From positions 1-13,988 of the forward strand of contig JAAFHE010000025.1 of assembly GCA_013298265.1 (NCBI GenBank): DNA of 13,988 bases, given 5' to 3'. Shown piece by piece: positions 1 to 13,988 of this stretch. Within the stretch, counting starts at the first letter, position 1. Each line of letters opens with the position of its first letter. The position numbers and the translations under genes were made by a program. The notes beneath the pieces are model-generated. The model had not been told where the DNA came from. It did not search any database and saw nothing but the letters and a program-made list of their open reading frames with translations. The DNA is from Lysobacterales bacterium. Its GTDB lineage: Bacteria; Pseudomonadota; Gammaproteobacteria; Xanthomonadales; Rhodanobacteraceae.

Positions 1-857
1 TTCTGCGCCTCGTCGACGAAGCCGAGGTAGCGCACACCGTCGTCGTCGCGCAGGCCGAGATGATCCGCGCCGGTCAGTACGAGTTCGACCGCATCGCGGT
101 GCTGCCGGCGCAGCAGCCGGAAGGCGGCGATCAGTTCGCGGCAGCCTTTGCTCTCGTCGATGCGCCCGCAGTAGAGCAGATAGGGTCGCTCGCGCGCTGC
201 CGGCGGCGACGCGGCCGTTTCTACGGCCATGCCGACGACGTCGCCGCGCTGGACGCCCCAGAGTCGCGCACCAAGGCGGCGTTCCGCCTCGGTGAGCCAG
301 ATGATGCGCGGCACGCGCTGCGCGGCCTGCGCGTAGACCGGCAGGTAGGCCGGCGGCTCGTCGTGCAGGGTTGGCACGAGCACGCGCTTGGCCTCGGGCA
401 CGCATTCCAGGCCGAAGTACGTGGTCGGATACAGGTAGGTGCAGAACAGCACGAACGCGTAGTCGCCGTGGTGTGCGCGCAGATGCGCAAACAGCCCCGG
501 ACACCACGGACCCTGGGCGCGGATGAACTGCTCGGCCAGCGTCGCGCGCCAGGCGATCCGTGCGGCACCGTCACGCTCGATCTCGTGCGCATGCGTCTGC
601 AGCAGGCGCCGGTGCAGTTCGTTGAACCAGCTGCCGCGCGGCCAGGCGCTCGCGAAGCGCAGGATGCGCACGTCTTCGCGCCGTTCCTCACCGGCCGGCA
701 GCGCGTTGTCCCAACTGCGGTAGTCGAGCGCGCAACTGGTCAGTATGTCGACGTCGGCGCGTGTACGCAGCAGCCGGGCGTAGTGCCAGGCCAGGGCTTC
801 GGAGCCGCCGGCGACATCGGCGTGGCAGCGCTGCACGACGACGGCGATGCGGGTCAT
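1..857 (-). CDS. Glycosyltransferase family 4 protein (3' end beyond the left edge)
   Basis: Reading leftward from ATG at 857, the frame is open to the window edge: 285 residues are visible and the C-terminal part is missing. The start MTRIAVVVQRC, followed by a glycine-rich GGSE at residues 17-20, is typical of the N-terminal Rossmann half of GT-B family-4 glycosyltransferases. CGRIDESKG at 230-238 matches the conserved motif that opens the donor-binding half of GT4 enzymes. The E-x7-E donor motif should lie outside the window. The expected role is transfer of a sugar from a nucleotide-sugar donor to a growing glycan in the cytoplasm; donor and linkage cannot be read. The start is fixed by an ATGA overlap with the stop of the upstream GT4 gene, so the two are probably translationally coupled. 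Confidence 0.9.
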   Translation of the reverse strand, partial: MTRIAVVVQRCHADVAGGSEALAWHYARLLRTRADVDILTSCALDYRSWDNALPAGEERREDVRILRFASAWPRGSWFNELHRRLLQTHAHEIERDGAARIAWRATLAEQFIRAQGPWCPGLFAHLRAHHGDYAFVLFCTYLYPTTYFGLECVPEAKRVLVPTLHDEPPAYLPVYAQAAQRVPRIIWLTEAERRLGARLWGVQRGDVVGMAVETAASPPAARERPYLLYCGRIDESKGCRELIAAFRLLRRQHRDAVELVLTGADHLGLRDDDGVRYLGFVDEAQ

Positions 858-1933
858 GCGAAAGCGGCCAGCGCGTCGTCGAGGCGTGCGGCGAGCAGGT
901 CCGGCGCGAACTCGTTCCGATAGCGTTCGCGGCCGGCCAGGCGCAGGACCTCGGCCGCGGCCGCATCGCGCGCGAGCCGGTCGAGGCTGGCCGCATACAG
1001 GCGCGGATCGGATTCCTGCCACGCGAGTCCGGCGCGGCCCAGCGTTTCGCCGATCGCGCCGCGGTCGCGCGCGACGACCGGCACTCCCAGCGCCATCGCC
1101 TCGACCAGCGGCACGCAGAAGCCTTCGTGCTCCGAGAGCATCAGCAGCGTGTCGGCGACGAGCCAGCAGGCTTTGAGGCGCGCGTCGTCGATGTTGTCGA
1201 GAAAGTGCACATTGTCAGAAATATTCAGTGCGGCGCATTGTTCGCGCAGGTGGCGCGAATAGCGCGCCAGGCGCCGGTCGTGCTTGCCGACAACGAGCAG
1301 GCGCGCATCGGCCGCGTAGTGGCGCCGGTAGCAGGCGAATGCATCGAACAGTGCCGCGTGGCCCTTGTTTGGGGCGACGCGGCCGAGCATGAGCACGTTG
1401 TGCCGGCCGCCGTAGCGATCCAGCAGCACCGTATCGGCCGGCTGGTCGAGCAAGGCCTCGCAGCGATGGAACGGCGCGAGCACGCGGCTGCGCTCGGGCG
1501 GCAGGCCCGCCTGCACGAGTTCGTCGGCGTTGTAGCGCGAACACGACAGCGCGAGATCGAAACCCAGTGTCGCGAGTGTCGCGAGGCTCGCGCGGCCTGC
1601 CGCGCAGCTGCGCACATGGTCGCGCGACCAGCCCTGGAAGAATTCCGCCGGCGTGATGTTGTGGTAGCGCAGTACGCGCCGGCACGACAACTGCGCGAGC
1701 TGCGCCTCGATGCGCGGCCAGCCGATGGAATAGTGGTAGATGACGAGATCGCGCGGACCCAGCCAGCGTTCGAGCCCGGCCGGCGCGTGCACGCTTTCAG
1801 CGAGGCCCTGGCTGTGGTCGGCGTAGAGGCGCACGTCGTGTCCGGCGCGGCGCAGCGCGGCCGCCATCTCGAGCACATCGGTGCCGACGGCGTCGTGGGC
1901 GGTCAGCGATGGGGCGAGCAGGGCGATCTTCAT
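854..1933 (-). CDS. Glycosyltransferase family 4 protein
   Basis: This is a complete 359-residue GT-B enzyme. It starts MKIALLAPSL, with a glycine/valine segment around residue 17 as usual for the acceptor half. HYSIGWP at 67-73 and RYHNITP at 89-95 recur in a subgroup of bacterial GT4 enzymes from polysaccharide clusters. The donor half opens with GRVAPNKGH at 184-192. EGFCVPLVE at 270-278 gives the E-x7-E donor motif with both glutamates intact, so it should be active. The exact sugar is unknown. The frame is open further upstream, but that extension is Arg/Ser-rich and unlike GT4. The ATG at 1933 overlaps the stop of a possible 36-codon ORF, and the gene's own stop overlaps the next start. 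No Shine-Dalgarno precedes the ATG, which fits translational coupling. Confidence 0.93.
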   Translation of the reverse strand: MKIALLAPSLTAHDAVGTDVLEMAAALRRAGHDVRLYADHSQGLAESVHAPAGLERWLGPRDLVIYHYSIGWPRIEAQLAQLSCRRVLRYHNITPAEFFQGWSRDHVRSCAAGRASLATLATLGFDLALSCSRYNADELVQAGLPPERSRVLAPFHRCEALLDQPADTVLLDRYGGRHNVLMLGRVAPNKGHAALFDAFACYRRHYAADARLLVVGKHDRRLARYSRHLREQCAALNISDNVHFLDNIDDARLKACWLVADTLLMLSEHEGFCVPLVEAMALGVPVVARDRGAIGETLGRAGLAWQESDPRLYAASLDRLARDAAAAEVLRLAGRERYRNEFAPDLLAARLDDALAAFA

Positions 1934-2040
1934 CGCGCGGCCGGGCGACGCACGGACGGCGCCGTTTCGCTTCGATCGGGCAGTCCTGCGCGGTACCGCA
2001 GGCAGCCGGCGATGCCGCACCACGCGCACGGGTGATTCAT
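1930..2040 (-). CDS. Possible small ORF (36 aa) bridging two operon genes by ATGA overlaps
   Basis: The gap between the DUF4214 gene and the GT4 gene holds a frame of 36 codons plus TGA. Its ATG (2040-2038) overlaps the stop of the DUF4214 gene as ATGA, and its TGA (1932-1930) overlaps the GT4 start as ATGA. The peptide begins MNHPCAWCGIAGCLRYR, with three cysteines in the first 13 residues, and ends Arg/Pro/Ala-rich. By my count 28 of 36 codons end in G or C, so codon use does not rule out coding. I recognise no family. It may be a real peptide, or simply a translated spacer that carries ribosomes from one gene to the next, since neither flanking start has a Shine-Dalgarno. Chance is also possible in such GC-rich DNA. 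Confidence 0.4.
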   Translation of the reverse strand: MNHPCAWCGIAGCLRYRAGLPDRSETAPSVRRPAAR

Positions 2041-2621
2041 GCGCGCGGATCGTTGCGCGCGCTGCGCAGCAGGGCGACGTCGTTGCGCAGGCGTGCGACT
2101 TCGGCGGTGAGATCGGCGATGTCCGCAACCGCGTTCTGCTGCGCCAGCGCCTGTCCGAGCCGGCGTTGCTCGCGCGCGATCTCGGGCAGGTTCCAGAGCA
2201 GGGCCAGTCGCTCGATCAGCGCACCGATCAGCGGCAGGCGGGTCAGGCGCCAGAAGCGGTAGCGCCCGGCGAGGCCGGCGATTTCCGCGCCATAGCCGCG
2301 GCCTTCGGCGGACGCGCGCAGGTCGCCGAGGATCGCGATCTTGCTGTCGCCGGCAGCGAGTCGCTGCAGCGCGAGGAGCTGGCCGCCGGCGTCGGGCGGG
2401 CGCTTGAGCAGACAGCGATAGGCGAGCTCGACGAACTCGTCGTTGTGTACGTGCATGAAGTCGTCGAGCGTGTAGTGCAGACGCTGTGGATGATCCAGCG
2501 CCAGCACCACGGGCGCGGCGCCGCGTGCGGTCACCGCGGACGACACCTCGGGCAGCGTCGCGGCTTCGGCGCGGATCTGCTGTTGCAGGTTGTCGAGCGG
2601 ATCGGAAGGATTCGGAGTCAT
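2037..2621 (-). CDS. DUF4214 domain protein with C-terminal coiled coil
   Basis: The protein has 194 residues from the ATG at 2621, 28 bases after the stop of the upstream gene. An earlier in-frame ATG at 2711 would lie inside that gene and add an Arg-rich stretch, so I did not use it. A central segment containing FVELAYRCLLKRPPDAGG matches the DUF4214 pattern (an aromatic/Tyr position, then LxRxPDxxG, then a helix). DUF4214 occurs in bacterial surface-layer, polysaccharide-cluster and glycosyltransferase-associated proteins; its biochemical role is not settled. The C-terminus, from about PEIAREQRRL onward, is heptad-like and ends in an Asp/Arg-rich tail, predicting a coiled coil. No signal peptide is seen, so a cytoplasmic scaffold or partner for the glycosyltransferases is plausible (inference). 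Confidence 0.8.
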   Translation of the reverse strand: MTPNPSDPLDNLQQQIRAEAATLPEVSSAVTARGAAPVVLALDHPQRLHYTLDDFMHVHNDEFVELAYRCLLKRPPDAGGQLLALQRLAAGDSKIAILGDLRASAEGRGYGAEIAGLAGRYRFWRLTRLPLIGALIERLALLWNLPEIAREQRRLGQALAQQNAVADIADLTAEVARLRNDVALLRSARNDPRA

Positions 2622-2649
2622 TGCGGAGGCGTTCGGCGGAGCGTCGGCT

Positions 2650-3813
2650 TCAGCGCGGAGTGGCAGCGCGCGCCGGCGCGGCCTCCGCCGCAGCGAGCGG
2701 GATGATGCCATACGAGCGCGCTGTGGCCAGGTCGATCCACTGGTAGTCGGGCTTGCGCTGGCCGAAGCCCGCAGCTTCGCGCGCGTAGCGCGCCTTGCCG
2801 GCGACGAGCGCGGCGGAGAAGCTGTCGAGTGCGTCGCTGTCGATCAGGCTTAGTTCGCCGACGAAGCCGGGCTTGGGCCGGACCGCGAGCTGGCGCGCGC
2901 CGAGCAGTGTCGTCTCGACGAATACCGGGCTGCTCTTCTTGTCATCGGTATAGAACGCGAGCAGCGCGTGGCGCGGCACGAGCAGCAGCACGCTGCGGAT
3001 GCCCAGGCGCTCCAGCGCCGCGGCCAGCAGCAGGCTGCCATCAATGCAGTTGGCGCGGCGCTCGCTCCAGACATCGTCGTGCAGCCGCACATGCTGGCTC
3101 CACACCAGCGGGCCGCGCGCGAGACCCGGATCCTCGTCGGCGTAGCGCACGCCGTGTAGCTGCAGCACTTCCCAGATCGCATACGCCGAGGCCAGTGCCT
3201 GCGCCGGTGTGCGCGGCCCGGGCTTGAGCGGCAGGAACGGGTGCCGTTCGGCGACCTGGTCGAAGATGTCGTCGATCACCTGCGAATCCGGATCCGCATA
3301 GGCGGCGAAGATCCAGCCGAGGTCGACGTGATCCTTGCCGTCGCGCACGTAGTACAGCGCTTCGCTGAGCGGGTGCAGGCGGATCTCGCGGCGCTGGCGC
3401 TGCGCCGGTGCGTCGTCGCGCTGCAGGGCGAACTCGGCAACGACGTTCTGCGGCTTCACCATGCTGGCCAGCGCACGGCGGCTCCAGCGCAGGCGTGGCC
3501 GCAGCGTATAGCGTTCGCCGGCGCGTGGCAGTACGGCCTGGACGCTGGCCGGCTCGGCCAGACCCGGCGCGCCGACGCTGAGGCTTACGCGCTCGTCGTT
3601 GCGCGCCGCCACCACGTCGACGGCGACCATGCCGCTGCCATCGCCGTAGCGGTTGTCGTCGGGCTTGGTGCTGGGACGTTGAGACAGGTCGAGTACCGGA
3701 TACAGCGCATCGTCGGGACTGACCCGCACCTGCCAGTCCGCTGAGCGCGCCAACGGACTCCACACCGCAGCGAACGCGACAGCGCAGGCCAGCAGCACGG
3801 CGTGCCGGCGCAT
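2650..3813 (-). CDS. Exported transglutaminase-like cysteine protein
   Basis: This 387-residue protein starts MRRHAVLLACAVAF, a typical signal peptide with likely cleavage near SPLARSA/DW, so the mature protein should be periplasmic. After a beta-rich N-terminal half comes a transglutaminase-like core: ANCIDGSLLLAAALERLGI with Cys256, VPRHALLAFY with His282, and PVFVETT with Glu300 where classical members carry Asp. The Cys/His/acid order, and the NC-x-D-G and ETT contexts, fit the transglutaminase-like superfamily. Its activity (peptidase, crosslinker or amidase) cannot be told. A second ATG at 3834 would add seven residues; I prefer 3813 because it gives the cleaner signal peptide, but neither start has a clear Shine-Dalgarno. 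It is the first gene of the leftward set, immediately ahead of the DUF4214 gene. Confidence 0.8.
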   Translation of the reverse strand: MRRHAVLLACAVAFAAVWSPLARSADWQVRVSPDDALYPVLDLSQRPSTKPDDNRYGDGSGMVAVDVVAARNDERVSLSVGAPGLAEPASVQAVLPRAGERYTLRPRLRWSRRALASMVKPQNVVAEFALQRDDAPAQRQRREIRLHPLSEALYYVRDGKDHVDLGWIFAAYADPDSQVIDDIFDQVAERHPFLPLKPGPRTPAQALASAYAIWEVLQLHGVRYADEDPGLARGPLVWSQHVRLHDDVWSERRANCIDGSLLLAAALERLGIRSVLLLVPRHALLAFYTDDKKSSPVFVETTLLGARQLAVRPKPGFVGELSLIDSDALDSFSAALVAGKARYAREAAGFGQRKPDYQWIDLATARSYGIIPLAAAEAAPARAATPR

Positions 3814-3840
3814 CGGGGTTTGCAAGGAAAGCATGTGCCG

Positions 3841-3870
3841 ACTATCGTTGCGCCCGCCTGTGCTTGTCCA
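3841..3870 (-). promoter_or_regulatory. Candidate sigma-70-like promoter for the leftward set
   Basis: On the minus strand, TGGACA (3870-3865, 5 of 6 matches to TTGACA) is followed after 18 bases by GATAGT (3846-3841, 4 of 6 matches to TATAAT). Transcription would begin near 3834, leaving a leader of about 20 bases before the ATG at 3813. This is one reason for preferring 3813 over the ATG at 3834. A match this loose can arise by chance. Confidence 0.3.
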
Positions 3871-3916
3871 TAGGCCGCGTTGGGACGGCAGGTTTCCCAG
3901 CCCGTTCCTTTCTCGT

Positions 3917-3920
3917 GGAG
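3917..3920 (+). promoter_or_regulatory. Ribosome binding site of the lipoprotein gene
   Basis: GGAG lies five bases ahead of ATG 3926. It decides the start: the frame stays open upstream, but only this ATG gives a ribosome site and an immediate lipoprotein signal. Confidence 0.75.
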
Positions 3921-3925
3921 TACCC

Positions 3926-4459
3926 ATGCGCACGATTCTCACGCCCCTTGCCCTGATGCTGCTATTGACGGCTTGCAGCAACGCGCCGCAGGATGCGGCC
4001 AAGCCCGCCGCCGCGCCCGCTCCTGCGCCGGCCGCGCCCGCACCGAAGACCGAGCAAGCTGCTGCGCCCACACCGGCACCTGCGCCGGCCGCACCCACGG
4101 AACTGCCGGTCGGCGCCTGCGGTGACCAGAGCGCCGTGGCCAAGGAAGAGCGCCTCGCCAACACGCCGCGCTGGACCACGGCGAGCGAAGTCGACAATTT
4201 CGGCTACGACGTGTTCCGCGGCGACAGCGAGGAAGGTCCGTTCGCCAAGCTCAACGCGAGCCCGCTGCTCGGCGCCGGCACCACGGACGAAACCAAGAAG
4301 TACGAGTACCGCGACGACACCATCGATCCGTGCCGCGACTACTGGTACTACGTCGAGTCCATCGACACCAACGGCGCGCGCGAAAAGTTCACGCCGGTCT
4401 TCAAGGCATCGGCCAAGCGCCGTGCAGCTGGCACGGCGGCGCCCACACAGGCGAAGTAA
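3926..4459 (+). CDS. Lipoprotein with Pro/Ala-rich linker and FN3-like domain
   Basis: The product has 177 residues. The N-terminus MRTILTPLALMLLLTACS is a lipoprotein signal with lipobox LTAC and lipidated Cys17; Ser18-Asn19 follow, so outer-membrane sorting is plausible. Residues about 20-60 form a Pro/Ala-rich flexible tether containing a 14-base DNA direct repeat (4022-4035 and 4079-4092). The C-terminal part, about 80-165, resembles a fibronectin type III fold, with a WTTASEVDNFGYDVFRG-type strand pair, then EGPFAKLN, then DYWYYVESIDTNG. Cys65 and Cys136 could form a disulphide in the envelope. The function is unknown; FN3-like modules usually bind proteins or carbohydrates. It leads the rightward set, four bases before the membrane glycosyltransferase gene. 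Confidence 0.88.
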   Translation: MRTILTPLALMLLLTACSNAPQDAAKPAAAPAPAPAAPAPKTEQAAAPTPAPAPAAPTELPVGACGDQSAVAKEERLANTPRWTTASEVDNFGYDVFRGDSEEGPFAKLNASPLLGAGTTDETKKYEYRDDTIDPCRDYWYYVESIDTNGAREKFTPVFKASAKRRAAGTAAPTQAK

Positions 4460-4463
4460 AGCC

Positions 4464-5819
4464 ATGCTGCAAAGGCAGGACGTGCGGGTGCGCCGGCGCG
4501 TCCTGCTTGGTATTTTTGTCGCATTGTTCCTTCTGCAGCAGGGTGCGCTGTTCTGGCTTTACTGGGCCGGCGGCGGCAAGATCCTGCTCGGCGACGAAGT
4601 CGCCTACCTGACCTGGGCGCGCGGGATCGCGGGGCTGGGGCCGATGCCGGTCGATGCCGGCTGGTGGCCGCCGCTGCAGGCCTGGCTGCTCGCCGGATCG
4701 CTGCGTTTGTTCGGCGAACACCTGCTGCCGCTGCAGTTGCTGCAGACCGTTTTCCTGGTCGGTGCCGCCGCACTGCTGCGCGCGCTCTGGCGCGACGTCG
4801 ACGGCCGCGTGCGTGCGGCCAATCTCGCCGCTGTGCTGTTCCTGCTTAATCCGTCCAACATGGCCTATGCGCATTGGCTCTGGCCCGAGCCGGTGCACCT
4901 GCTGCTGCTGCTCGCGGCGCTGCGCCTGGCGCTGCGCGCCGCTGCGCCGGCGCGCAGTTTTCTCGCCGGCGCCGCGCTCGGCGCCGCGCTGCTGGCCAAG
5001 AGTCTGTTGAGCCTGTTCTGGCCGGCGCTCGCGCTGCTGCTTGCGCGTCGCTACCGCTGGCGCGGCGCCGTTGCGCTGCTGCTCGGTGTCGCCGTGGTTA
5101 CGGCGGTGCCGCTGTGGCAGGGCTGGCGCCTGACCGGCAAGCCGATGATTGCCGACAGCTCTGCGTTCAACCTCGTCGGCGGCCTGCGCGAACAGTGGCG
5201 CAGCGACTACATCGACGACAGCGTCGCGGACCTGGTGCCGGACTATTTCGCCAGCGCGACGACGCCGGCCGGGCGCAACGCAATCTATCTCCAGCGCGCC
5301 GGGGCGATCGTGCAGGAGCAGGGCCTGCTGGTGACGCTGGCGGAGCAGCTCGGACGCCAGTACTTCCGCCTGTTCAGCGCGAAAACCACCTTGTTCTCGC
5401 AGTTGCCCGGTCCCGCCTGTTCCGGACACGCCGGCAGCTATCGCGAGACGGCCGCCGTGCTGGCGCAAGCGATCACGGCAGCCGGCGACACGCTGCATCT
5501 CGTCAGCCTCGTCGGCTTCGCGCTGGGTCTTGCGTTCTGGCGGCGCTGGCGCGAGCCGCTGGTCGTGTGGGGTGCGCTGTTTTTCGCCTATCAGCTAGGC
5601 CTTTACCTGCTGCTGCACGTCAAGGCGAGATTCCTGCTGCCGATGATGCCCTTCCTCTGTGCATTTGCCGGCAGCGCGCTGGCCAGCCTGCAGCGGCCCG
5701 ACGCGACGGCCGCCGTGCATCTGCAGGGCGCGATGCGCTGGATGATCGCCGCGTCGCTCGCGACATTGCTGCTGATGCTTGCGCTGGCCGGGCCCTGGTT
5801 CGACCAAAGTTGCGGATGA
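4464..5819 (+). CDS. Polytopic GT-C membrane glycosyltransferase (GT39/ArnT-like)
   Basis: This 451-residue protein is dominated by hydrophobic helices. The first follows a basic N-terminus at about residues 12-35. Directly after it, LLGDEVAYLTWA places Asp44-Glu45 in the first external loop, where GT-C enzymes of the GT39/ArnT/PMT type carry their catalytic acid. WWPPLQAWLLA at about 67-77 resembles the Pro-Pro-Leu segment that follows in that family. Near the end, VKARFLLPMMPFL is the usual Arg-Phe-Leu-Pro helix start. Such enzymes use polyprenyl-phosphate-linked sugars on the periplasmic side. The length is near the lower end for ArnT-like proteins, which often carry a larger periplasmic domain. 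The start at 4464 is only four bases after the lipoprotein stop. The sugar and acceptor are unknown. Confidence 0.85.
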   Translation: MLQRQDVRVRRRVLLGIFVALFLLQQGALFWLYWAGGGKILLGDEVAYLTWARGIAGLGPMPVDAGWWPPLQAWLLAGSLRLFGEHLLPLQLLQTVFLVGAAALLRALWRDVDGRVRAANLAAVLFLLNPSNMAYAHWLWPEPVHLLLLLAALRLALRAAAPARSFLAGAALGAALLAKSLLSLFWPALALLLARRYRWRGAVALLLGVAVVTAVPLWQGWRLTGKPMIADSSAFNLVGGLREQWRSDYIDDSVADLVPDYFASATTPAGRNAIYLQRAGAIVQEQGLLVTLAEQLGRQYFRLFSAKTTLFSQLPGPACSGHAGSYRETAAVLAQAITAAGDTLHLVSLVGFALGLAFWRRWREPLVVWGALFFAYQLGLYLLLHVKARFLLPMMPFLCAFAGSALASLQRPDATAAVHLQGAMRWMIAASLATLLLMLALAGPWFDQSCG

Positions 5820-5826
5820 CGACGGC

Positions 5827-5831
5827 GGAGG
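5827..5831 (+). promoter_or_regulatory. Ribosome binding site of the small helical protein gene
   Basis: GGAGG lies four bases ahead of ATG 5836. It selects this start over an in-frame ATG at 5779 that would sit inside the membrane glycosyltransferase gene. Confidence 0.75.
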
Positions 5832-5835
5832 CCGC

Positions 5836-6204
5836 ATGAATCGCGAGCAGGAACTGGAGCTGCGCCTGGACGAGTCGCGCCATGCCGAGGCGGAGCTGCG
5901 CCGCGTCATCGACATCCTGCTGGCCGAGGGCGACGCGGTGTTCGCGAGCCGCAGCTGGCGCCTCGGCCGCGCGCTCGTCCGCGTCGCGGAGTGGCTGCAG
6001 CAGCGCCTCGGCCGCACACCCGCCGTCGCGCAGGACGCGGCGCACTGGCGGCGCATCGTCGCGGCGCACGACGACGGCCTCGCGCGGCGCCGAGCGCTGC
6101 TCGAACGCCTGTGCGTCGACGGCGCTGTCGAGGAAGATCTGGATGCGGTGCTCGCGCAGGTCTGGCGGGGGATTGGCGCGGAGCGGCGCAGCGACCGCCC
6201 ATGA
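5836..6204 (+). CDS. Small helical/coiled-coil protein of a glycan cluster
   Basis: A 122-residue protein without signal peptide or membrane helix. Residues about 1-30, starting MNREQELELRLDESRHAEAE, are rich in Glu, Leu and Arg and look like a coiled coil. Then comes ASRSWRLGRALVRVAEWLQ. This recalls the S-x-S-W-R-x-x-x-x-R segment often found after coiled coils in glycosyltransferase- and methyltransferase-associated proteins of polysaccharide clusters. The rest is helical and charged. No catalytic motif is seen. Its stop overlaps the start of the next gene (ATGA), so it is probably made in step with the three-domain fusion and may bind it. I know no named family for it. Confidence 0.8.
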   Translation: MNREQELELRLDESRHAEAELRRVIDILLAEGDAVFASRSWRLGRALVRVAEWLQQRLGRTPAVAQDAAHWRRIVAAHDDGLARRRALLERLCVDGAVEEDLDAVLAQVWRGIGAERRSDRP

Positions 6205-8882
6205 GCGCGCCGCATACCAGCCTTGTCGTGCTGGCCTGGAACCGCTGGGAGCTGACGGTGCGTGCGCTCGACAGCCTGCTCGCGACCGATCTGGACGGTT
6301 GCGAAGTCATCGTCGTGGACAACGGCTCAACCGACGCGACGCCGCAGGCGCTGGACGCGTATGCCGACCGCGTGCGGCGGCTGCGACTCGGTGCCAACCT
6401 CGGCTTCGTGCGCGGCAACAACGCTGGCATCGCCGCGGCCGCGGCCACCGACGGCGTGGTGCTGCTCAACAATGACCTCGTCTTCACCCAGCGCGACTGG
6501 CTGCAACGCCTGCGCGCCTGCGCTGATGCGCAGGCGGATACCGGCATCGTCGGCTGCCGCCTCGTCGATGCGCGCGGGCGCTTGCTGCACGCCGGTACGC
6601 GCGTGCTTCCCGACGATGGCACGGGCGTGCAGACCGCGTCGGGACGCGTCGAGCAGGATGTCGGCCAATACACCGATGCGGACCGCGTGGTCGAAGGCGT
6701 GGTTTTCGCCGCGGTCTACCTCAAGCGCGCGCTCCTTGAGGCGATAGGCCCGCTGCACGAGGACTACGTCACCTATGCCGAGGACAGCGACTACTGCCTG
6801 CGCGCGCGCGCCGCGGGCTGGCGCACGCGCCTGTGCGGCGGCGTCACCTTGCGCCATGACCAGCACGGTTCCACCGGCGAGGACGGCACGGCGCGCGCGC
6901 AGTTGCTGGCGCAGGGCCGTGCGACGTTTGCGCGGCACTGGTCGGCCGCGCTGCACGCGCAGTACGACAGGTCACTGTGCCTGGCGGGCGCGCTGGATTT
7001 CCCGGCTGCGCTCGCCGCGTGGCAGCGGCCGCTGGCGCGTGCGCTCGATGCGGCCGGCGTGCGGCTGAGCTATCGCTCGCTGTATGCGCCGGTGCTGCCC
7101 GAAGCGATTGCTGAGAGCGGCGACAGCCAGGACCACCTGCTCAACGCCATCCGCCGCCGTGCGGCCGATGCCGACGTCGTACTGTGTGCCGGCGACGCGG
7201 CGCTGTGGCCCCGCGTGACCGCACCGTGGCGTATCGGCTATGCAGATTTCGAACGGCTGCCCGACGGTGCCCAGGCGGCTTCGATCCGCGCGATGGACGA
7301 GATCTGGACACCCAGCATCTGGCATCGCGACCAGTTGTGCGCGGCGGGCCTGGCCGATGCGCAGGTCATGCCCTGGGTCGTCGAGCCGGCCTATGCGCAT
7401 CCGCGGCTGCGCGCGACCCGCAACCCGCACGACGAACGCGTCGTGCTGTGCTGCGCGCGCTGGGACGATATCGACGCGCCGTGGCTGCTGCTGCAGGCCT
7501 GGACGCAGCGGTTCCGGCGCGAACAGCCGCTGCGCCTGCTGCTGTGCATCGACCCACTCGGCCAGGATCTTGCCGCGGCGACGCGCGCGCTGCCGCTGGA
7601 TCCGCACGGCGGCCGCTACAGCCTGCTGCCGCAGCCGCGGCTCGCCGAAGAGCAGCGCCAGGCCCTGTTCGCAACCGCCGATGTCGTGATCTGTGCCAGC
7701 CGCAGCCGCAGCCGCTGCTGGCCCTTGCTGCAGGCGATCGCCACCGCGCGGCCGCTCGTTGCGACCGCCCGCGGCGCGCGCACCGAACTGCTGCAGCGGC
7801 AGGGCGGCGGGGCAGCGCCGGACGGCGACGACGCGAGCGTGGCGGATCGCGTGCTCGATGCGCTCATCCCCGTGCTGCACGATCTTCCGGCGGCGCAGGC
7901 ACGCGCACAGGCCGCGAGCACCATGCTGCGCGCCGAGGCGGAGCAGGGCGTCACGGCGCGGTCGATGCGCGAGCGCCTGCGCCAGCCGCGGCACCACCTG
8001 CCGCACTCACCGCCGGCAGGCCGCAGCGCGCACGGTCTCGTCGTGCTCGGCATGCACCGTTCCGGCACCTCGTGTGTAGCCGGACTGCTGCAATTGCTGG
8101 GCGCCCATGCGGGCATGCCCGGCGCGTTCCTGCGCAACCCCTCCGAAAACCCGCGTGGCTTCGTCGAGCGCAACGACCTGCACATGGCCTGCGTCGCTGC
8201 GCTGCGCCGGCGCGGTGGCGACTGGTCGGTGCCGCTGGGCTGGGACGAATCCGCGCTGCCGGCGGCGCGGGCGCAGCTACGCCGCGACTGGGAGCCGATC
8301 GCGCTGGAACTGGCGGCACAGGCGCCCTGGCTGATCAAGGAGCCGCGCCTATGCCTGCTGTACGGCGAGATAGCCGATTGCGTCGCGCAGCCCGTATTCG
8401 TCCATGTCGTGCGGGCACCGACGGCCGTGGCCGCCTCGGTCCGGCGCCGTGACGGCCTTACCGCCGCGCATGCGCTGGCGCTGTGGGAACACTACAACCT
8501 TGCGGCCGCGGCGCTGGCTGCTGGCGGTCCGGCCGTCGTCGTGGATTACCATGCCCTGTTGCAGCAGCCGCGATCACAGGTGCGCCGGCTGTGGCTGAAG
8601 CTGGAATCGTTCGGCGTGCGCGGCCTGCGTCTGCCCGACGACGAGGAAATCGGCGCCTGGATCGGCCCGTCGCTGGCACGCGCTCGGCACGCGCGCGTGC
8701 CCGTGCCGAGCGCGGCGCAGCAACAGCTATGGCGTGCGCTGGAACGGCGCGCGGCGGACGAGCCGGCGGAACTGCCGCCGCTGTCGGCGGACAGCGAGGC
8801 GTTGTTGCACCAGGTCGGCAGCGAGCATCGGGCGCGCCTGCGCAGGGAACACGAACAGCAAGAGGATCAGCACCCCGAATGA
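6201..8882 (+). CDS. Fusion protein: GT2 glycosyltransferase, degenerate GT4 domain, sulfotransferase
   Basis: An 893-residue protein with three parts. Residues about 6-247 are a GT-A family-2 glycosyltransferase: SLVVLAWNR, VVDNGSTD at 38-45, the metal-binding NND at 90-92 and YAEDSDYCLRARAAGW at 192-207. Residues about 288-595 look like a GT4 (GT-B) domain, including DEIWTPSIWHRDQL at 366-379. Its E-x7-E site, however, reads Arg503 and Gln511, and the usual GRxxxxKG motif is CARWDDID, so donor binding is probably lost. Residues about 610-830 are sulfotransferase-like: GMHRSGTS at 617-624 is the PAPS 5'-phosphosulfate loop, KEPR is at 713-716, and VRAPTAVAASVRRRDG supplies the 3'-phosphate site. 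Expected role: add a sugar and sulfate a glycan in the cytoplasm. ATGA overlaps tie it to both neighbours. Acceptor and sulfation position are unknown. Confidence 0.85.
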   Translation: MSAPHTSLVVLAWNRWELTVRALDSLLATDLDGCEVIVVDNGSTDATPQALDAYADRVRRLRLGANLGFVRGNNAGIAAAAATDGVVLLNNDLVFTQRDWLQRLRACADAQADTGIVGCRLVDARGRLLHAGTRVLPDDGTGVQTASGRVEQDVGQYTDADRVVEGVVFAAVYLKRALLEAIGPLHEDYVTYAEDSDYCLRARAAGWRTRLCGGVTLRHDQHGSTGEDGTARAQLLAQGRATFARHWSAALHAQYDRSLCLAGALDFPAALAAWQRPLARALDAAGVRLSYRSLYAPVLPEAIAESGDSQDHLLNAIRRRAADADVVLCAGDAALWPRVTAPWRIGYADFERLPDGAQAASIRAMDEIWTPSIWHRDQLCAAGLADAQVMPWVVEPAYAHPRLRATRNPHDERVVLCCARWDDIDAPWLLLQAWTQRFRREQPLRLLLCIDPLGQDLAAATRALPLDPHGGRYSLLPQPRLAEEQRQALFATADVVICASRSRSRCWPLLQAIATARPLVATARGARTELLQRQGGGAAPDGDDASVADRVLDALIPVLHDLPAAQARAQAASTMLRAEAEQGVTARSMRERLRQPRHHLPHSPPAGRSAHGLVVLGMHRSGTSCVAGLLQLLGAHAGMPGAFLRNPSENPRGFVERNDLHMACVAALRRRGGDWSVPLGWDESALPAARAQLRRDWEPIALELAAQAPWLIKEPRLCLLYGEIADCVAQPVFVHVVRAPTAVAASVRRRDGLTAAHALALWEHYNLAAAALAAGGPAVVVDYHALLQQPRSQVRRLWLKLESFGVRGLRLPDDEEIGAWIGPSLARARHARVPVPSAAQQQLWRALERRAADEPAELPPLSADSEALLHQVGSEHRARLRREHEQQEDQHPE
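7698..7715 (+). repeat. (AGCCGC)3 tandem repeat inside the degenerate GT4 domain
   Basis: Three perfect copies of AGCCGC encode Ser-Arg-Ser-Arg-Ser-Arg at residues 500-505 of the fusion protein. The tract covers the place where an active GT4 has the first Glu of E-x7-E and the following Gly-Phe. Length is unchanged relative to the intact GT4-GT2 fusion encoded downstream, so it looks like replacement rather than insertion. Confidence 0.7.
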
Positions 8883-10372
8883 CGGATCCACAAGTCAGCT
8901 CGCGATTGCCGCGGCGTGTCGATTGGGACGGCGCCGAACTGCGCCTGGCGCTGCCGGTGCGCGGCGAGGTCGAGGTATGGCTCGACGGTACGTATTACGC
9001 GCGCCTGCGGGCCGACGACGCCGGTGACGCACGGCTGGCTTTGCCGGTCCTGCCGAACGGGCAGGCGCGTGTGAACCTGCAACTGCGCGTCGCCCGCGAG
9101 TGCTCGGCCACGGTCACACTGCAGCGCGGTCGCGCGGGCCTCGCGCGTGCGGCCGCGCTGCTGCCGCCGCAGCCGCTGTGTGAACAGGATTATGTCGACG
9201 TCGCCGTCGCGGCGGAGTCGCTGCGGCGCGAAATCGCCATTGTTGTGCCGGTCTACAACGCGCCGGAGGCCGTGGCGGTCTGCCTCGACAGCGTGCTCGC
9301 GCAGACGCGCGGAGCCGCGCGGCTTATCGTGATCGACGATGCGAGTCCGGATCCGGCGATCGCGCCGCTGCTCGCCCGCTATCGCGACTGCCGCGGCGTC
9401 ACGATCCTGGGCAACGAGCACAATCTCGGTTTCACCGCGACCGCGAACCGCGGCATCGAGGTAGCCGGCCGCGCCGATGTGGTGCTGCTCAATGCGGATA
9501 CCGAGGTCGCCGCGCACTGGCTGGCCGGGCTACGCCGTGCGGCCTGGGCCGCGGCGGAAACGGCCAGCGCCACCGCGGTATCGGACAACGCGGGCGCATT
9601 CTCCGTGCCGGAACTCGAACAGGAAAATCCCTTTCCGCACGGATGGACATTTGCGCAGGCGGCACTCGCCGTGCGCCAGCAGGCCGGCAGCGCCTATCCG
9701 CGTCTGCCGACCGGCAACGGCTTCTGCCTCTACCTCAAGCGCGCTGCGCTCGATGCGGTCGGCGTGCTCGACGCGCAGGCCTTCGCCCAGGGCTACGGCG
9801 AGGAAAATGACTGGTGCCAGCGCGCCGAAGCGGCCGGATGGCGGCATGTGATCGCCGGCGACGTGCTCGTGCGCCACGCGCGCAGTCAGAGTTTCGGCGA
9901 GGCGCGCCGCCGCACGCTCGGCGAAGCCGGCATGGCGGTGCTGCGCGAACGCTGGCCGAACTACGAGAACGACGTCGGCGCGAGCCTGTTCTCGCCGCGC
10001 CGGCGCGTGCTCGACTGGCGCGTGCGCCGGGCTTATGCAGGCGCGCCGCCGCTGCCGCGGCAACTGTGCTGGGAAGACGCCGCAGCGGATACGGAGGCAG
10101 CACCGGTGTACCGCTGCCGGCGCGGTCGCGACGGCCTGTGGCTGCAATCGCCGGATGGCGCCGCCGCGCTGTACGAGCACCTCGCCGATGCGTCGGTGGC
10201 AGCCGGTTGCAGCGCCGCCGGATGGAGCGCGAGCTTCGCGCGCTTGCTGCAGTGTCACGCGATCGACCGCATCGTCGGTGCGCTGCCGTCCGAGTTCGCA
10301 CGTGTCGCCGCTGCTCTGGCGATCGACACGACGACAGCACCGGCGCCGCGTCCGTTCGGAACCGTCGCATGA
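8879..10372 (+). CDS. Glycosyltransferase family 2 protein with N- and C-terminal extensions
   Basis: A 497-residue protein whose GT-A core lies at about residues 118-340. The core shows IAIVVPVYNAPEAV, VIDDASPD at 151-158, EHNLGFTATANRG, LLNADTEV at 203-210 with the metal-binding Asp, PTGNGFCLYLKR and GYGEENDWCQRAEAAGW at 305-321. These are the signatures of rhamnosyl/mannosyl-type GT2 enzymes of polysaccharide clusters. The first roughly 115 residues are rich in Val/Leu/Arg and predicted beta strands, and about 115 residues follow the core; I recognise no family in either extension. They may be modules for acceptor binding or partner contact. The ATG overlaps the stop of the fusion gene (ATGA), and its own stop overlaps the dehydratase-like gene the same way. 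The donor is unknown; GDP- or dTDP-deoxyhexose would suit the context. Confidence 0.9.
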   Translation: MTDPQVSSRLPRRVDWDGAELRLALPVRGEVEVWLDGTYYARLRADDAGDARLALPVLPNGQARVNLQLRVARECSATVTLQRGRAGLARAAALLPPQPLCEQDYVDVAVAAESLRREIAIVVPVYNAPEAVAVCLDSVLAQTRGAARLIVIDDASPDPAIAPLLARYRDCRGVTILGNEHNLGFTATANRGIEVAGRADVVLLNADTEVAAHWLAGLRRAAWAAAETASATAVSDNAGAFSVPELEQENPFPHGWTFAQAALAVRQQAGSAYPRLPTGNGFCLYLKRAALDAVGVLDAQAFAQGYGEENDWCQRAEAAGWRHVIAGDVLVRHARSQSFGEARRRTLGEAGMAVLRERWPNYENDVGASLFSPRRRVLDWRVRRAYAGAPPLPRQLCWEDAAADTEAAPVYRCRRGRDGLWLQSPDGAAALYEHLADASVAAGCSAAGWSASFARLLQCHAIDRIVGALPSEFARVAAALAIDTTTAPAPRPFGTVA

Positions 10373-11403
10373 GCCTGCGTGTGCTCGTCACCGGCGCCGC
10401 CGGACAGGACGGCGCCTATCTGTGCCGCGACCTGCTCGCCGCCGGCTGTCAGGTGCACGCCGCGCTGCGGCCAGACTGGCCGGACGACGGACTGTGGCGG
10501 TTGCGTGAACTGGGTCTGCTCGGCCAGCCGAACTTGTATCTGCTGGCGCTCGACGTGCGCGACGCGGCGGCCTGCGCCGCCGCGGTCGGGCGCCTGCAGC
10601 CGCAGCACGTGTTCCATCTTGCCGCCGCCAGCAGCGTCTCGCAGGCGCTGGAGGATCCCCTGGGCAGCGTCGACAGCAACGGCAACGGCACGCTGCACCT
10701 GCTCGAAGCGCTGCGCCTGCAGGCGCGCGCCGCGCGCTTCGTGCTGGCTTCCAGCGGCGAAATTTTCGCGCCGCGCGACGGTGTCGTCGACGAAACCTGC
10801 GCATTGCAGGCGCGTCACCCCTACGCCTTGTCCAAGCTGCTTGCGCACGCGGCGGTGCGTTGCTACCGCGACAGCTACGGCGTGCAGGCCAGCGCGGCGA
10901 TCCTGTTCAACCACGAATCGCCGCTGCGCGGCAGTGCCTTCGTGACGCGCAAGATCGCGGCGGCCGCGGCACGCCGGGCCGCCGGCGACGGCGCCGTTCT
11001 TCGGCTCGGCAATCTCGATGCGCAGCGCGATTTCGGCTATGCGCCGGACTACGTCGCCGGCCTGCGCGCGCTGGCCGCAGCACCGCCGGATGATTTCGTG
11101 TTCGCGAGCGGCATCTGCACCTCGATCCGCGATTTCGCCACGCTGGCCTATGCGTCCGCCGGCATTGCGCTGGGCTGGCGCGGCGAGGGCGCTGACGAGC
11201 ATGCCTTTGACGCGCGCGACGGGCAGCGCTGCATCGCCGTGGATGCGGCGCTGCTGCGCCCGTCGGATGCGCCGCTGCTGCGCGGCGATGCGACGCGGGC
11301 GCGGCGCGAGCTCGGTTTTTCCCATCGTATGGACGTGGCCGGCCTGGCCCGCGTGCTGGTCGAGGCGGAGCGTCAGCGCCTGCGGCCGGAATCGCACGCA
11401 TGA
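10369..11403 (+). CDS. gmd: GDP-mannose 4,6-dehydratase-like SDR enzyme
   Basis: A 344-residue short-chain dehydrogenase/reductase-fold enzyme. VTGAAGQDGAYL at 7-18 is the Rossmann nucleotide loop, and the GQDG form is characteristic of GDP-mannose 4,6-dehydratase. Further family signatures are HLAAASSVSQALEDPL, FNHESPLRGSAFVTRKI near 180-196 and LGNLDAQRDFGYAPDYV near 213-229. The catalytic set appears as Ser129, Glu131, Tyr152 and Lys156, with Ser where typical Gmd has Thr. It would convert GDP-mannose to GDP-4-keto-6-deoxymannose, the precursor of GDP-rhamnose, GDP-fucose or GDP-perosamine. It is shorter than usual (about 360-370) and several conserved stretches are altered, so a related 6-deoxyhexose dehydratase or reductase is possible. 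No fcl, rmd or per gene lies in the window. ATGA overlaps join it to both neighbours. Confidence 0.82.
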   Translation: MSLRVLVTGAAGQDGAYLCRDLLAAGCQVHAALRPDWPDDGLWRLRELGLLGQPNLYLLALDVRDAAACAAAVGRLQPQHVFHLAAASSVSQALEDPLGSVDSNGNGTLHLLEALRLQARAARFVLASSGEIFAPRDGVVDETCALQARHPYALSKLLAHAAVRCYRDSYGVQASAAILFNHESPLRGSAFVTRKIAAAAARRAAGDGAVLRLGNLDAQRDFGYAPDYVAGLRALAAAPPDDFVFASGICTSIRDFATLAYASAGIALGWRGEGADEHAFDARDGQRCIAVDAALLRPSDAPLLRGDATRARRELGFSHRMDVAGLARVLVEAERQRLRPESHA

Positions 11404-13646
11404 GCGCTGCGCCGCTGCGCCTGATCCTCAACGTCGATGCGATCAGTGCGCCGCTGACCGGCATCGGCGTCTACACGCGCGAATTGGCGCTGGGACTGGA
11501 GCAGATAGGACTGGAGCAGGCGTCGCAACTGGCCGAACTCAAGCTGTTCTCGGCCTATCGCTGGGTCGCCAACAGCGAGCAGGCGTTCCAGGTCAACCGC
11601 ACCATCCAGAGCGTGCGGCGCGTGCTGCCGTTCAAGCGCACCGCCCTGGAAGGCTATACCGCGCTGCGCGCCGCTCTGTTCCGGCGCAGCGCGCGCAGCC
11701 TGCGCGACCATGTGCTGCACGCGCCGAATTTCGTGCTGATGCCGTTCGACGGTCCCTGCGTCGCGACGGTGCACGATATATCTTATTTGCGTTATCCACA
11801 GTTCCACCCGATCGAGCGCGTGCGTTTCCTCGAGCGCCACCTGCCGCCGACGCTGGCGCGCGCCGATGCGCTGATCACCGATTCGGCCTACGTGCGCGAC
11901 GAACTGATCAGTGTGCTCGGCGTGGATCCGGCCAAGCTGCACGTGGTGCCGCTGGGTGTGAATGCGGCGTTCCGGCCGCGCACGCCGGCCGAGGCGGCCG
12001 ACGCGCTGGCAGCGCACGGACTGAGCTGGCGCGGCTATCTGCTGGTGGTCGCCACGCAGGAGCCGCGCAAGAACCTGGAGCGGCTGGTGCAGGCCTACGC
12101 GACGCAGCCGGCAGCGCTGCGCGCGCGCCTGCCGCTGGTGGTAGTCGGTGCGCGCGGCTGGCTCGACGCCGGCCTTGCGCGCGCGATCGAGCCGCTGGAG
12201 CGACGCGGCGAAGTGCGCCGTCTCGGTTTCGTCGCCGACGCACAGTTGCCAATGCTCTACGCGGCTGCGGCCGGGTTCGCGTTCCCGTCGCTGTACGAGG
12301 GGTTCGGCCTGCCGCTGCTGGAGGCGATGGCCAGCGGCGTGCCGGTGCTGACCTCCAACGCGGCCTCGATGCCCGAGGTCGTCGGCGACGCCGCCCTGTG
12401 CGTCGATCCGTTCGACGTCGACGCCATCGGCGCCGGACTGCGGCGCCTGAGCGAAGACACGGCCTGGCGCGAACAGGCGGCTGCGGCCGGCCTGGCGCAG
12501 GCCGCCGGCTATAGCTGGCGGCGCACGGTCGAGGCGACGCTCGCGGTCTATGCCGCGGCGCGTATCCGCGCAGGCACCGTGGGCGCGCCGCTCGCGCATC
12601 AGCGCGTCGCGTCCGCGCCTTTGCGCGCGGCGGTAGTGCTAGTGAACTACAACACGGCCGATCGCAGCCTGCGCTGCGTCGCCTCGCTGCAGGGACTGGC
12701 TGCGCGCATTCGTCTGGTCGTCGTCGACAGCGGATCGAATCCGGCTGACCTGGCCTTACTCCGGCGGGGTCTTGCGCAGGACTGGCCGTCGGCGGAGCTC
12801 ATCGCGAGCCCGCTGAACATCGGTTTCGCCGCCGGCTGCAACCGGGCGATCACGCGCGTGCTGCCGGACGCGCAGATATCCCATGTGCTGCTCCTCAACA
12901 ACGATGCCGTTGCGACGACACAGCTCGGACGCTGGGTTACCGATCACCTCGACGGGCGCTGCGACGCCGATCTTGCCGGCGGCCGGGTACTCAAGCTGGC
13001 CGACGGCAGCGACGAGATCGATTCGCTCGGCATCGCGTTCTATCGCAGCCTGCTCGCATCGAACCGGCTCGACCCGCAGGATCCCTATTTCGGTCCCACC
13101 GGCGGCTGCGCGCTGTACGCGCGGCGCGTGCTCGAAGCGTTGCAGGCCGAGCACGGCTACGTGTTCGACGAAGAATTCTTCTGCTACGCCGAAGATACCG
13201 ATGTGGCCGCGCGAGCCCTGCTGCTCGGCTTCACACCGGCCTATACCGACGACGTGCTGGCGCGGCATGAAGGACAGGCCTCCAGCGGCGGCGGTTTCAA
13301 CGATTTCGTGCTCTACCACGGCATCCGCAATTCGCTGTGGATGCTGCTCAAATGCGTGCCGCTGAGTGTGATCCTGCGTCACCTGCCGTCACTGGCGGCG
13401 ATCCACGCCGGCATCCTGTTGCGCCACGGCCTGCGCGGCAAGGGCCGCGTGGTGTTCCGGCTGTATCGCGACGCGCTGCGCGGAACCCTGCGCATGCTCC
13501 GCAAGCGCCGCCGAATCCAGGCCGGGCGCCGCATCACGGCGGCGGTATTCTCACGCCACGTCAGCGGGCGTTTCTACGACCGTGGCTACGTACGCAATGC
13601 GCTGCGCGACCTGTGGGCGGCGCTGCGCGGCAGGCCGCGCAGCTAA
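11400..13646 (+). CDS. Two-domain glycosyltransferase: GT4 followed by GT2
   Basis: A 748-residue protein. Residues about 7-390 form a complete GT4 enzyme: TGIGVYTREL near 20-29, VHDISYLRYPQF near 124-135, VVPLGVN, QEPRKN at 220-225 and EGFGLPLLE at 300-308, with both glutamates of E-x7-E present. This pattern resembles mannosyl/rhamnosyltransferases of deoxyhexose-containing O-antigen and rhamnan clusters. Residues about 408-640 are a GT2 domain: AVVLVNYNTAD, VVDSGSNP at 441-448, LLLNND at 497-502, GPTGGCALYARR and CYAEDTDVAARALLLGF. The C-terminus is basic with a hydrophobic stretch near 650-675 that may touch the membrane. Two active centres in one chain suggest consecutive sugar additions. 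Its ATG overlaps the dehydratase-like gene's stop. It is the last gene of the rightward set. Confidence 0.92.
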   Translation: MSAAPLRLILNVDAISAPLTGIGVYTRELALGLEQIGLEQASQLAELKLFSAYRWVANSEQAFQVNRTIQSVRRVLPFKRTALEGYTALRAALFRRSARSLRDHVLHAPNFVLMPFDGPCVATVHDISYLRYPQFHPIERVRFLERHLPPTLARADALITDSAYVRDELISVLGVDPAKLHVVPLGVNAAFRPRTPAEAADALAAHGLSWRGYLLVVATQEPRKNLERLVQAYATQPAALRARLPLVVVGARGWLDAGLARAIEPLERRGEVRRLGFVADAQLPMLYAAAAGFAFPSLYEGFGLPLLEAMASGVPVLTSNAASMPEVVGDAALCVDPFDVDAIGAGLRRLSEDTAWREQAAAAGLAQAAGYSWRRTVEATLAVYAAARIRAGTVGAPLAHQRVASAPLRAAVVLVNYNTADRSLRCVASLQGLAARIRLVVVDSGSNPADLALLRRGLAQDWPSAELIASPLNIGFAAGCNRAITRVLPDAQISHVLLLNNDAVATTQLGRWVTDHLDGRCDADLAGGRVLKLADGSDEIDSLGIAFYRSLLASNRLDPQDPYFGPTGGCALYARRVLEALQAEHGYVFDEEFFCYAEDTDVAARALLLGFTPAYTDDVLARHEGQASSGGGFNDFVLYHGIRNSLWMLLKCVPLSVILRHLPSLAAIHAGILLRHGLRGKGRVVFRLYRDALRGTLRMLRKRRRIQAGRRITAAVFSRHVSGRFYDRGYVRNALRDLWAALRGRPRS

Positions 13647-13648
13647 AG

Positions 13649-13666
13649 CCGCGGCCGCCGCCGCGG
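13649..13666. terminator. Weak hairpin between convergent genes
   Basis: CCGCGG, a six-base spacer and CCGCGG form a short GC stem two bases after the stop of the GT4-GT2 gene. There is no T-run on the plus side; the minus side has only TTT after the stem. It may stop transcription weakly in either direction, but such sequences are common in DNA this GC-rich. Confidence 0.25.
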
Positions 13667-13684
13667 TGAATAGCTGTCGCGCCG

Positions 13685-13988
13685 TTATTTCGCCGCGACT
13701 TTTTTCGACGCGGCGGGGTCAGGGACATTCGGCGCAGCATCGAAACCGGTGCTCAGCAGCACATCGCCCTGACCAACGACATTCGGACTGTTACGCAGGA
13801 CGACGCCAGGCGCGGGCGCGGCGGCAGCCGGCTTGGGTTCGCTCAGATCCAGGCGCGCGATAGCATCGAACGGATTGGACGGGTCGGCCACATAGCCGCG
13901 CACTTCGACGGCCGCCTCGCGTATCCCCGCCGGTGGTTCGGGCAGCGTGAAGCGCGGCCCCAGCACGGTGAAGCGGGCCGAATGGAGC
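13685..13988 (-). CDS. C-terminal part of a protein of unknown function (5' end beyond the right edge)
   Basis: The minus-strand frame is open from the window edge to TAA at 13687-13685, giving 100 visible residues of a protein that begins outside. The visible part starts LHSARFTVLGPRFTLPEPP and continues with a beta-like segment containing EVRGYVADPSNPF. An Ala/Pro-rich linker then leads to a tail ending AASKKVAAK. No family is recognised. The low-complexity linker and lack of membrane helices would suit a periplasmic or surface-associated protein, but this is weak. It converges on the GT4-GT2 gene with a 38-base gap, so it belongs to a separate transcription unit. An internal GTG at 13966 is probably not the start, because the frame continues upstream of it with ordinary codon use. 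Confidence 0.6.
   Translation of the reverse strand, partial: LHSARFTVLGPRFTLPEPPAGIREAAVEVRGYVADPSNPFDAIARLDLSEPKPAAAAPAPGVVLRNSPNVVGQGDVLLSTGFDAAPNVPDPAASKKVAAK

Follow-up and report, generated by a model that had tools for sequence, protein, structure and literature searches.

A predicted glycosyltransferase-sulfotransferase fusion built around a pseudo-GT4 domain in Lysobacterales

The timing of sulfation relative to glycan growth is little known in bacteria. In the sulfated capsules of Vibrio sp. KMM 8419 and Cobetia marina, genes for an ABC exporter, for PAPS supply and for sulfotransferases occur in one glycan cluster, a likeness to the system considered here; in contrast to it, their PAPS genes lie inside the cluster, and the available sections of the two reports mention no fusion of a glycosyltransferase (GT) to a sulfotransferase (PMC11641403, PMC11766843). 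The O-antigen cluster of Aeromonas salmonicida includes a gene with a sulfotransferase domain, yet in the available part of that paper the O-antigen is reported to contain no residue of this kind (PMC4483657). The accessible portions of work on synechan (PMC13125312), on Actinoplanes (PMC13390465) and of a review (PMC11625862) likewise describe no GT-sulfotransferase fusion. For the order GT2-GT4-sulfotransferase, neither a description nor a characterised example was found in the open-licence literature, in agreement with a sequence-only reading of the present locus, which knew of none.

The DNA studied (the window) comprises 13,988 nt of a Lysobacterales bacterium (GCA_013298265.1, contig JAAFHE010000025.1, positions 1 to 13,988, forward strand). 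It contains a run of genes on the same strand: a PMT_2-type GT, a short protein, the three-domain fusion, a second GT2, a GDP-mannose 4,6-dehydratase-like enzyme and a GT4-GT2 fusion (Table 1). At each end, the three-domain gene shares an ATGA overlap with its neighbour (6201-6204 and 8879-8882), as read from the DNA. The sequence-only reading had predicted a frame of 893 residues with the motifs NND (90-92), GMHRSGTS (617-624) and KEPR (713-716), all of which were found in place. Its proposed succession of GT2, GT4-like and sulfotransferase modules was borne out by a Pfam search, in which all three domains exceeded the curated cut-offs. PADLOC gave no match that would identify the fusion as a defence gene.

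Table 1. Coordinates of the fusion gene, its domains and the neighbouring genes in the window.
Feature	Position	Strand	Remarks
GT2 - pseudo-GT4 - sulfotransferase fusion gene	6201..8882	+	893 aa, translation without internal stop
Predicted GT2 domain, ~aa 1-255	6201..6965	+	PF00535 at 7-122, 70.4 bits (cut-off 23.3)
Predicted pseudo-GT4 domain, ~aa 256-556	6966..7868	+	PF13692 (Glyco_trans_1_4) at 413-555, 36.4 bits (cut-off 27)
Predicted PAPS-type sulfotransferase domain, ~aa 611-810	8031..8630	+	PF13469 (Sulfotransfer_3) at 614-798, 31.4 bits (cut-off 27)
PMT_2-type membrane glycosyltransferase	4392..5819	+	putative start codon
Short protein	5836..6204	+	ATGA overlap with the start of the fusion; copies 57-76% identical in 6/6 Tahibacter-type loci
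Second GT2 glycosyltransferase	8879..10372	+	homologue 52-74% identical in 15/15 loci searched
GDP-mannose 4,6-dehydratase-like enzyme	10366..11403	+	TIGR01472 239.7 bits, below cut-off 415; homologue in 15/15 loci
GT4-GT2 fusion glycosyltransferase	11400..13646	+	
Convergent PorU-like C25 peptidase, C-terminal end (last ~100 residues)	13685..13987	-	cut by contig end

Homologues with the same domain order share 34-91% identity with the fusion, and those named to genus belong to Tahibacter (the nearest) or Dokdonella (both among the matches listed, best 120 of 470). All homologue counts given here refer to listed homologues, the best 120 of 470, of 603 (with the sulfotransferase part as query) or of 1835, with about 8000 candidates scored in each search. 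Proteins shorter than 850 aa (P0033) were left out of the counts over 119 homologues and those shorter than 800 aa (P0033, P0147, P0148) out of the counts over 163. Of 61 relatives' genomes, 10 contain a full-length match, namely 7 of the 8 in the window's genus (G005 lacks one) and 3 others of the family. In a class-wide sample of 369 genomes, with no more than two candidates scored in each genome, such a match was restricted to the window's own genome and one congener. Because the domain order recurs in homologues and in relatives' genomes, the fusion as a product of chance or of misassembly was rejected. Among 80 public loci, 10 encode the GT2-GT4-sulfotransferase order in one frame, 16 encode GT2-GT4 in one frame with no sulfotransferase match, and 18 encode a sulfotransferase first with a GT2 match further on in the same frame. 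Since the last arrangement is so frequent, fusion of a GT with a sulfotransferase is not in itself new; uncharacterised fusions in the other order are common in genomes. The sulfotransferase family itself is widespread: Sulfotransfer_3 matches are present in 57 of 61 relatives' genomes, with 8 in the window's own.

The GT2 domain keeps its donor-site DNGSxD, the DXD-type NND and the ED pair. Each of the residues D40, N41, S43, D45, N90, N91, D92, E194 and D195 is present in 163/163 listed homologues, which upholds the earlier view that the GT2 motifs are intact. In an unrooted GT2 tree of 26 three-domain and 29 two-domain (GT2-GT4) rows, a single branch separates the two sets (support 83/68). 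The tree was rebuilt without outgroup sequences, which had been set aside for their very long branches. The split is compatible with, rather than proof of, a single event.

In GT4 enzymes, the EX7E motif and a Lys have catalytic and donor-site roles. The sequence-only reading described a GT4-like fold, and the family resemblance stands, with PF13692 above its cut-off and a GT-B fold predicted from this profile match; the active-site motifs of GT4 are absent. The first Glu of EX7E (position 503) is found in 0/163 listed sulfotransferase-bearing homologues vs 133/135 listed sulfotransferase-free relatives, and the donor-site Lys of EWGERK (position 425) in 0/163 vs 134/135. Position 425 is instead Asp in 158 of the 163 three-domain homologues, and the second Glu of EX7E is also gone in 61 of them (Gln in P0001). 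These counts lend no support to a third working enzyme in the middle of the chain. Two of the 135 listed two-domain proteins lack the EX7E Glu, one of them L062, and so this loss also happens without a sulfotransferase. The domain also diverges much faster in the three-domain than in the two-domain proteins: where the GT2 parts are 50-60% identical, three-domain proteins share 27.2 and 27.2% identity over the N- and C-terminal GT4 halves vs 56.6 and 59.9% for two-domain proteins. The other bins of GT2 identity point in the same direction, and 15/266 GT4 positions are at least 95% identical among three-domain proteins vs 83/266 among two-domain ones. Among five Tahibacter-type genes, dN in both GT4 halves exceeds that of the GT2 and of the sulfotransferase in 10/10 pairs, which are non-independent. 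Since dN/dS of these halves stays below 1 in the same five genes, the middle domain appears to have been retained although catalysis was lost. By its residues, the domain is classed as a pseudo-GT4 that has lost its catalytic residues, and it probably serves as a scaffold.

The C-terminal domain retains its sulfotransferase motifs. Besides the RSGT-type loop for the 5'-phosphosulfate (GMHRSGTS), it carries NPRGFVE, which includes E656, a 3'-phosphate motif formed by R738 and S746, and a conserved KxP at K713. G617, H619-S624, E656, K713, R738 and S746 are each present in 119/119 aligned listed homologues, and M618 in 118. GMHRSGTS, the Glu, KxPR, the Arg and the Ser are likewise invariant across 35 sulfotransferase pieces (the window's and 34 of 57 mapped), distant fusions included. 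E656 is a putative catalytic base, although this role is a guess, and K713 presumably acts as in known sulfotransferases. PF13469 was matched by 35/35 pieces, followed by Sulfotransfer_1 (13) and Sulfotransfer_4 (10); AAA_18 appeared in 7, the strongest at E 0.17, and assignment to a non-sulfotransferase P-loop family was rejected on these grounds. The window's C-terminal part, searched singly, matched no solved structure, and a profile of the 35 pieces was therefore used. It retrieved two "putative uncharacterized" proteins (E 1.4e-5 and 0.0007), tyrosylprotein sulfotransferases (E 0.0015 to 0.017), CurM (0.0083), another polyketide synthase chain (0.01) and an aryl sulfotransferase (0.022), with unrelated chains at E 0.11 and 0.14 ahead of SULT1A1 chains at 0.52 or above. 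In the tyrosylprotein sulfotransferase alignments KxP and R...S line up, as does the 5' loop, the latter insignificant on its own. The likeness to solved sulfotransferases is thus modest. Taken with the Pfam matches, it sustains the earlier assignment, motifs included, and the last domain is classed on sequence grounds as a PAPS-type sulfotransferase rather than a member of another P-loop family. As to the supply of PAPS, APS kinase was matched in 60 of 61 genomes (weakly in G017, not in G057) and strongly both in the window's own genome and in each of the 10 that carry the fusion.

The gene context differs between two types of locus. In the nine Dokdonella-type loci (three-domain loci outside the window's genus: L027-L029, L038-L042, L065), Wzm and Wzt are encoded just upstream of the fusion in every case, whereas none of the six loci of the window's own, Tahibacter type (L023-L026, L030, L031) has them beside it. 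No Wzt occurs among the window's genes scanned with Pfam. Both proteins are encoded within the fetched flanks of 8 of the 10 three-domain public loci. Copies of the Dokdonella-type Wzm, 56-65% identical to it, lie elsewhere in G002, G003, G005, G006 and G007, and G005 has the exporter without the fusion; no close copy was found in G000 (87.6% complete), G001 or G004. This context fits sugar transfer and sulfation in the cytoplasm followed by ABC export, with the genes linked in part of the family and not in the window's own type.

These features suggest a single machine that adds both sugar and sulfate to a surface polymer. In the cytoplasm, the N-terminal GT2 would extend a lipid-linked glycan by a sugar, and the middle GT-B-type domain, no longer catalytic, may act as a spacer or acceptor-binding platform. 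The C-terminal domain would then transfer sulfate from PAPS to the same sugar or to a neighbouring one, so that sulfation would precede the exit of the chain from the cell, through an ABC (Wzm/Wzt) exporter in at least part of the family. From the kept GT2 and sulfotransferase motifs, the lost GT4 motifs, the gene for PAPS synthesis, the operon context and the Dokdonella-type ABC exporter, all read from the sequence, we infer the chemistry and order of the steps, the acceptor, the donor sugar, the cell location and the role of the pseudo-GT4. Sulfation may in this way be an integral step of chain growth, as the sequence-only reading had proposed. A search of the open-licence literature found neither activity nor glycan data for these organisms. 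We put the probability of such a two-activity enzyme on a non-catalytic scaffold at roughly two in three. A GT and a sulfotransferase held together over a dead GT would make it possible to test directly whether the pattern of sulfation is set by coupling, and the protein is an apparent case of an enzyme turned scaffold within a family to which a new activity was appended.

Three other accounts of the fusion deserve consideration. If all three domains were catalytic, the protein would add two sugars and one sulfate, the middle GT4 having a shifted, unusual active site. PF13692 still scores above its cut-off and some GT4 positions are fixed, Asp 425 among them, but the EX7E first Glu and the Lys are missing throughout the listed homologues, the second Glu is frequently lost as well and the GT4 part diverges fast, which makes a third activity quite unlikely. 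A different proposal places the sulfotransferase at the end of synthesis, as a chain terminator whose sulfate cap at the growing end halts elongation. Methyl, phosphomethyl or Kdo caps stop elongation in some ABC-exported O-antigens, the ABC exporter adjoins the fusion in Dokdonella-type loci, and a capping step would be well served by a protein that unites a GT with a modifying enzyme. Wzt proteins that read such caps have a C-terminal sugar-binding domain. In the one Wzt scanned (L029, 238 aa), the ATPase domain (ABC_tran) alone exceeded its cut-off and no cap-reading C-terminal domain was seen, and we regard termination as unlikely.

The sulfotransferase domain might also bind its nucleotide without sulfating, or sulfate a target other than a glycan, for which the O-antigen of A. 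salmonicida offers a precedent in the part of the report available (PMC4483657). The near-complete conservation of the motif residues in the 119 listed homologues, and their invariance in the 35 pieces, speaks against this account and renders it improbable. The two-activity enzyme on a pseudo-GT4 scaffold therefore remains the preferred reading.

An unexpected, if weak, lead is that the fusion cluster often lies near a convergent gene for a PorU-like C25 peptidase. PorU-type sortases link type IX secretion substrates to anionic LPS. Support for this linkage is found in the available part of PMC4560394. In the C25 proteins of the present set, the His of GHGG and the Cys of TCYS are conserved in 11/11 and would form the catalytic pair, and the NCBIfam PorU models gave 189-216 bits in 5/5 scanned, short of the cut-off of 420 and hence of membership in the T9SS sortase PorU. 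A C25 match is present in 10/10 genomes with the fusion vs 2/27 others in the family (p 1.9e-7), 7 of the 10 being of one genus; counted by genus, by hand, the figures are 3/3 with the fusion vs 1/23. The distance to the fusion is within 25 kb in 8 of the 10 genomes (in G000 by the tail of the window, in G004 at 23 kb) and above 100 kb in G011 and G036. Among the fetched flanks of the 80 public loci, 4 contain a C25 gene (L037, L038, L039 and L112, the last perhaps identical to G046:C35). Outside the family, three genomes of one genus (G038, G049, G058) have a single locus in which Wzm/Wzt homologues (54-63% identical) stand together with a convergent C25 and with a sulfotransferase that has GT2 matches; Pfam confirmed a methyltransferase-sulfotransferase-GT2 architecture in two of them, not in G049. 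C25 is also present in 14 of 24 genomes of the order's other families, none of which has the three-domain fusion; like the low count in the public loci, this speaks against a general rule. The fusion might make a sulfated glycan to which a PorU-like C25 transpeptidase anchors surface proteins; this glycan would be a Lysobacterales counterpart of the anionic LPS of type IX secretion, ABC-exported in part of the family. This idea is a long shot, and its odds are lowered slightly because C25 genes occur without the fusion. The neighbourhood of ABC exporter and PorU-like peptidase in part of the order is nevertheless a testable lead to an undescribed form of protein anchoring.

The relation to other proteins can be drawn for each part of the chain. 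The two-domain GT2-GT4 glycosyltransferases share the same order and are homologous over ~aa 1-536 (29-42% identity in 16 loci). Named matches come from Thermoanaerobaculia (best 120 of 1835) and, in the public loci, from Paenibacillus, Chloroflexi, Desulfonatronovibrio and others. Unlike the fusion, they have the sulfotransferase loop in 0/135 listed proteins and keep EWGERK and RGEGW...LEAMACG intact in nearly all. The uncharacterised sulfotransferase-first fusions (ST-GT2, ST-GT2-GT2, MT-ST-GT2) likewise hold a homologous sulfotransferase (31-40% identical, 18 loci) in one chain with a GT2, and Wzm and Wzt are both encoded in the fetched flanks of 5/18. Their sulfotransferase is N-terminal, in contrast to that of the fusion, and sometimes stands behind a methyltransferase; in five such proteins of relatives scanned with Pfam, PF13469 fell below cut-off in 2. 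Tyrosylprotein, CurM and SULT sulfotransferases act on other acceptors. The profile search of solved structures connects them to the C-terminal domain, but the similarity is weak and the chains listed have no attached GT. In the known sulfotransferase-deacetylase system, a sulfotransferase is also joined to a second glycan-modifying activity, yet the partner there is a deacetylase, whereas here it is a glycosyltransferase.

The short protein that precedes the GT2 - pseudo-GT4 - sulfotransferase fusion is kept in all six Tahibacter-type loci (the window's own type). At this position the Dokdonella-type loci, which carry the three-domain fusion outside the window's genus, have a different short ORF; that of L029 matches 6 others, and no similarity between the short ORFs of the two types was detected at E 1e-3. 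Further upstream, the 515-aa ORF has homologues (37-83% identity) in 9/9 loci (L023-L031). A Pfam scan at E 0.01 gave no match for it, and its similarity to the NCBIfam anti-phage ProA model is partial (73.5 bits vs. a cut-off of 1500).

The operon also holds a second glycosyltransferase fusion, GT4-GT2. Relatives of its GT2 half (44-50% identity) adjoin the sulfotransferases of four loci (L033, L034, L035 and L117), being separate gene calls in L033-L035.

A convergent gene for a PorU-like C25 peptidase lies past the glycan cluster in Tahibacter-type and some Dokdonella-type loci. In one genus of a second family such a convergent gene likewise lies past the glycan cluster, next to GT and sulfotransferase genes. 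In L034 and L035, homologues of the ABC exporter pair Wzm/Wzt and a C25 gene adjoin methyltransferase - sulfotransferase - GT2 fusions.

Coordinates of features in the window and in the compared loci
Feature	Location	Strand	Remark
515-aa ORF	window 2650-4197	-	
Short protein	window 5836-6204	+	precedes fusion
GT4-GT2 fusion	window 11400-13646	+	GT4 first
PorU-like C25 peptidase	window 13685-13987	-	convergent, past glycan cluster
PorU-like C25 peptidase	L024:17228-19957		
PorU-like C25 peptidase	L029:15263-17998		
PorU-like C25 peptidase	L030:1282-3990		
PorU-like C25 peptidase	L034:10930-13833		
PorU-like C25 peptidase	L035:10599-13856		
Methyltransferase - sulfotransferase - GT2 fusion	L034:5761-9804		1347 aa
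Methyltransferase - sulfotransferase - GT2 fusion	L035:3947-9505		1852 aa
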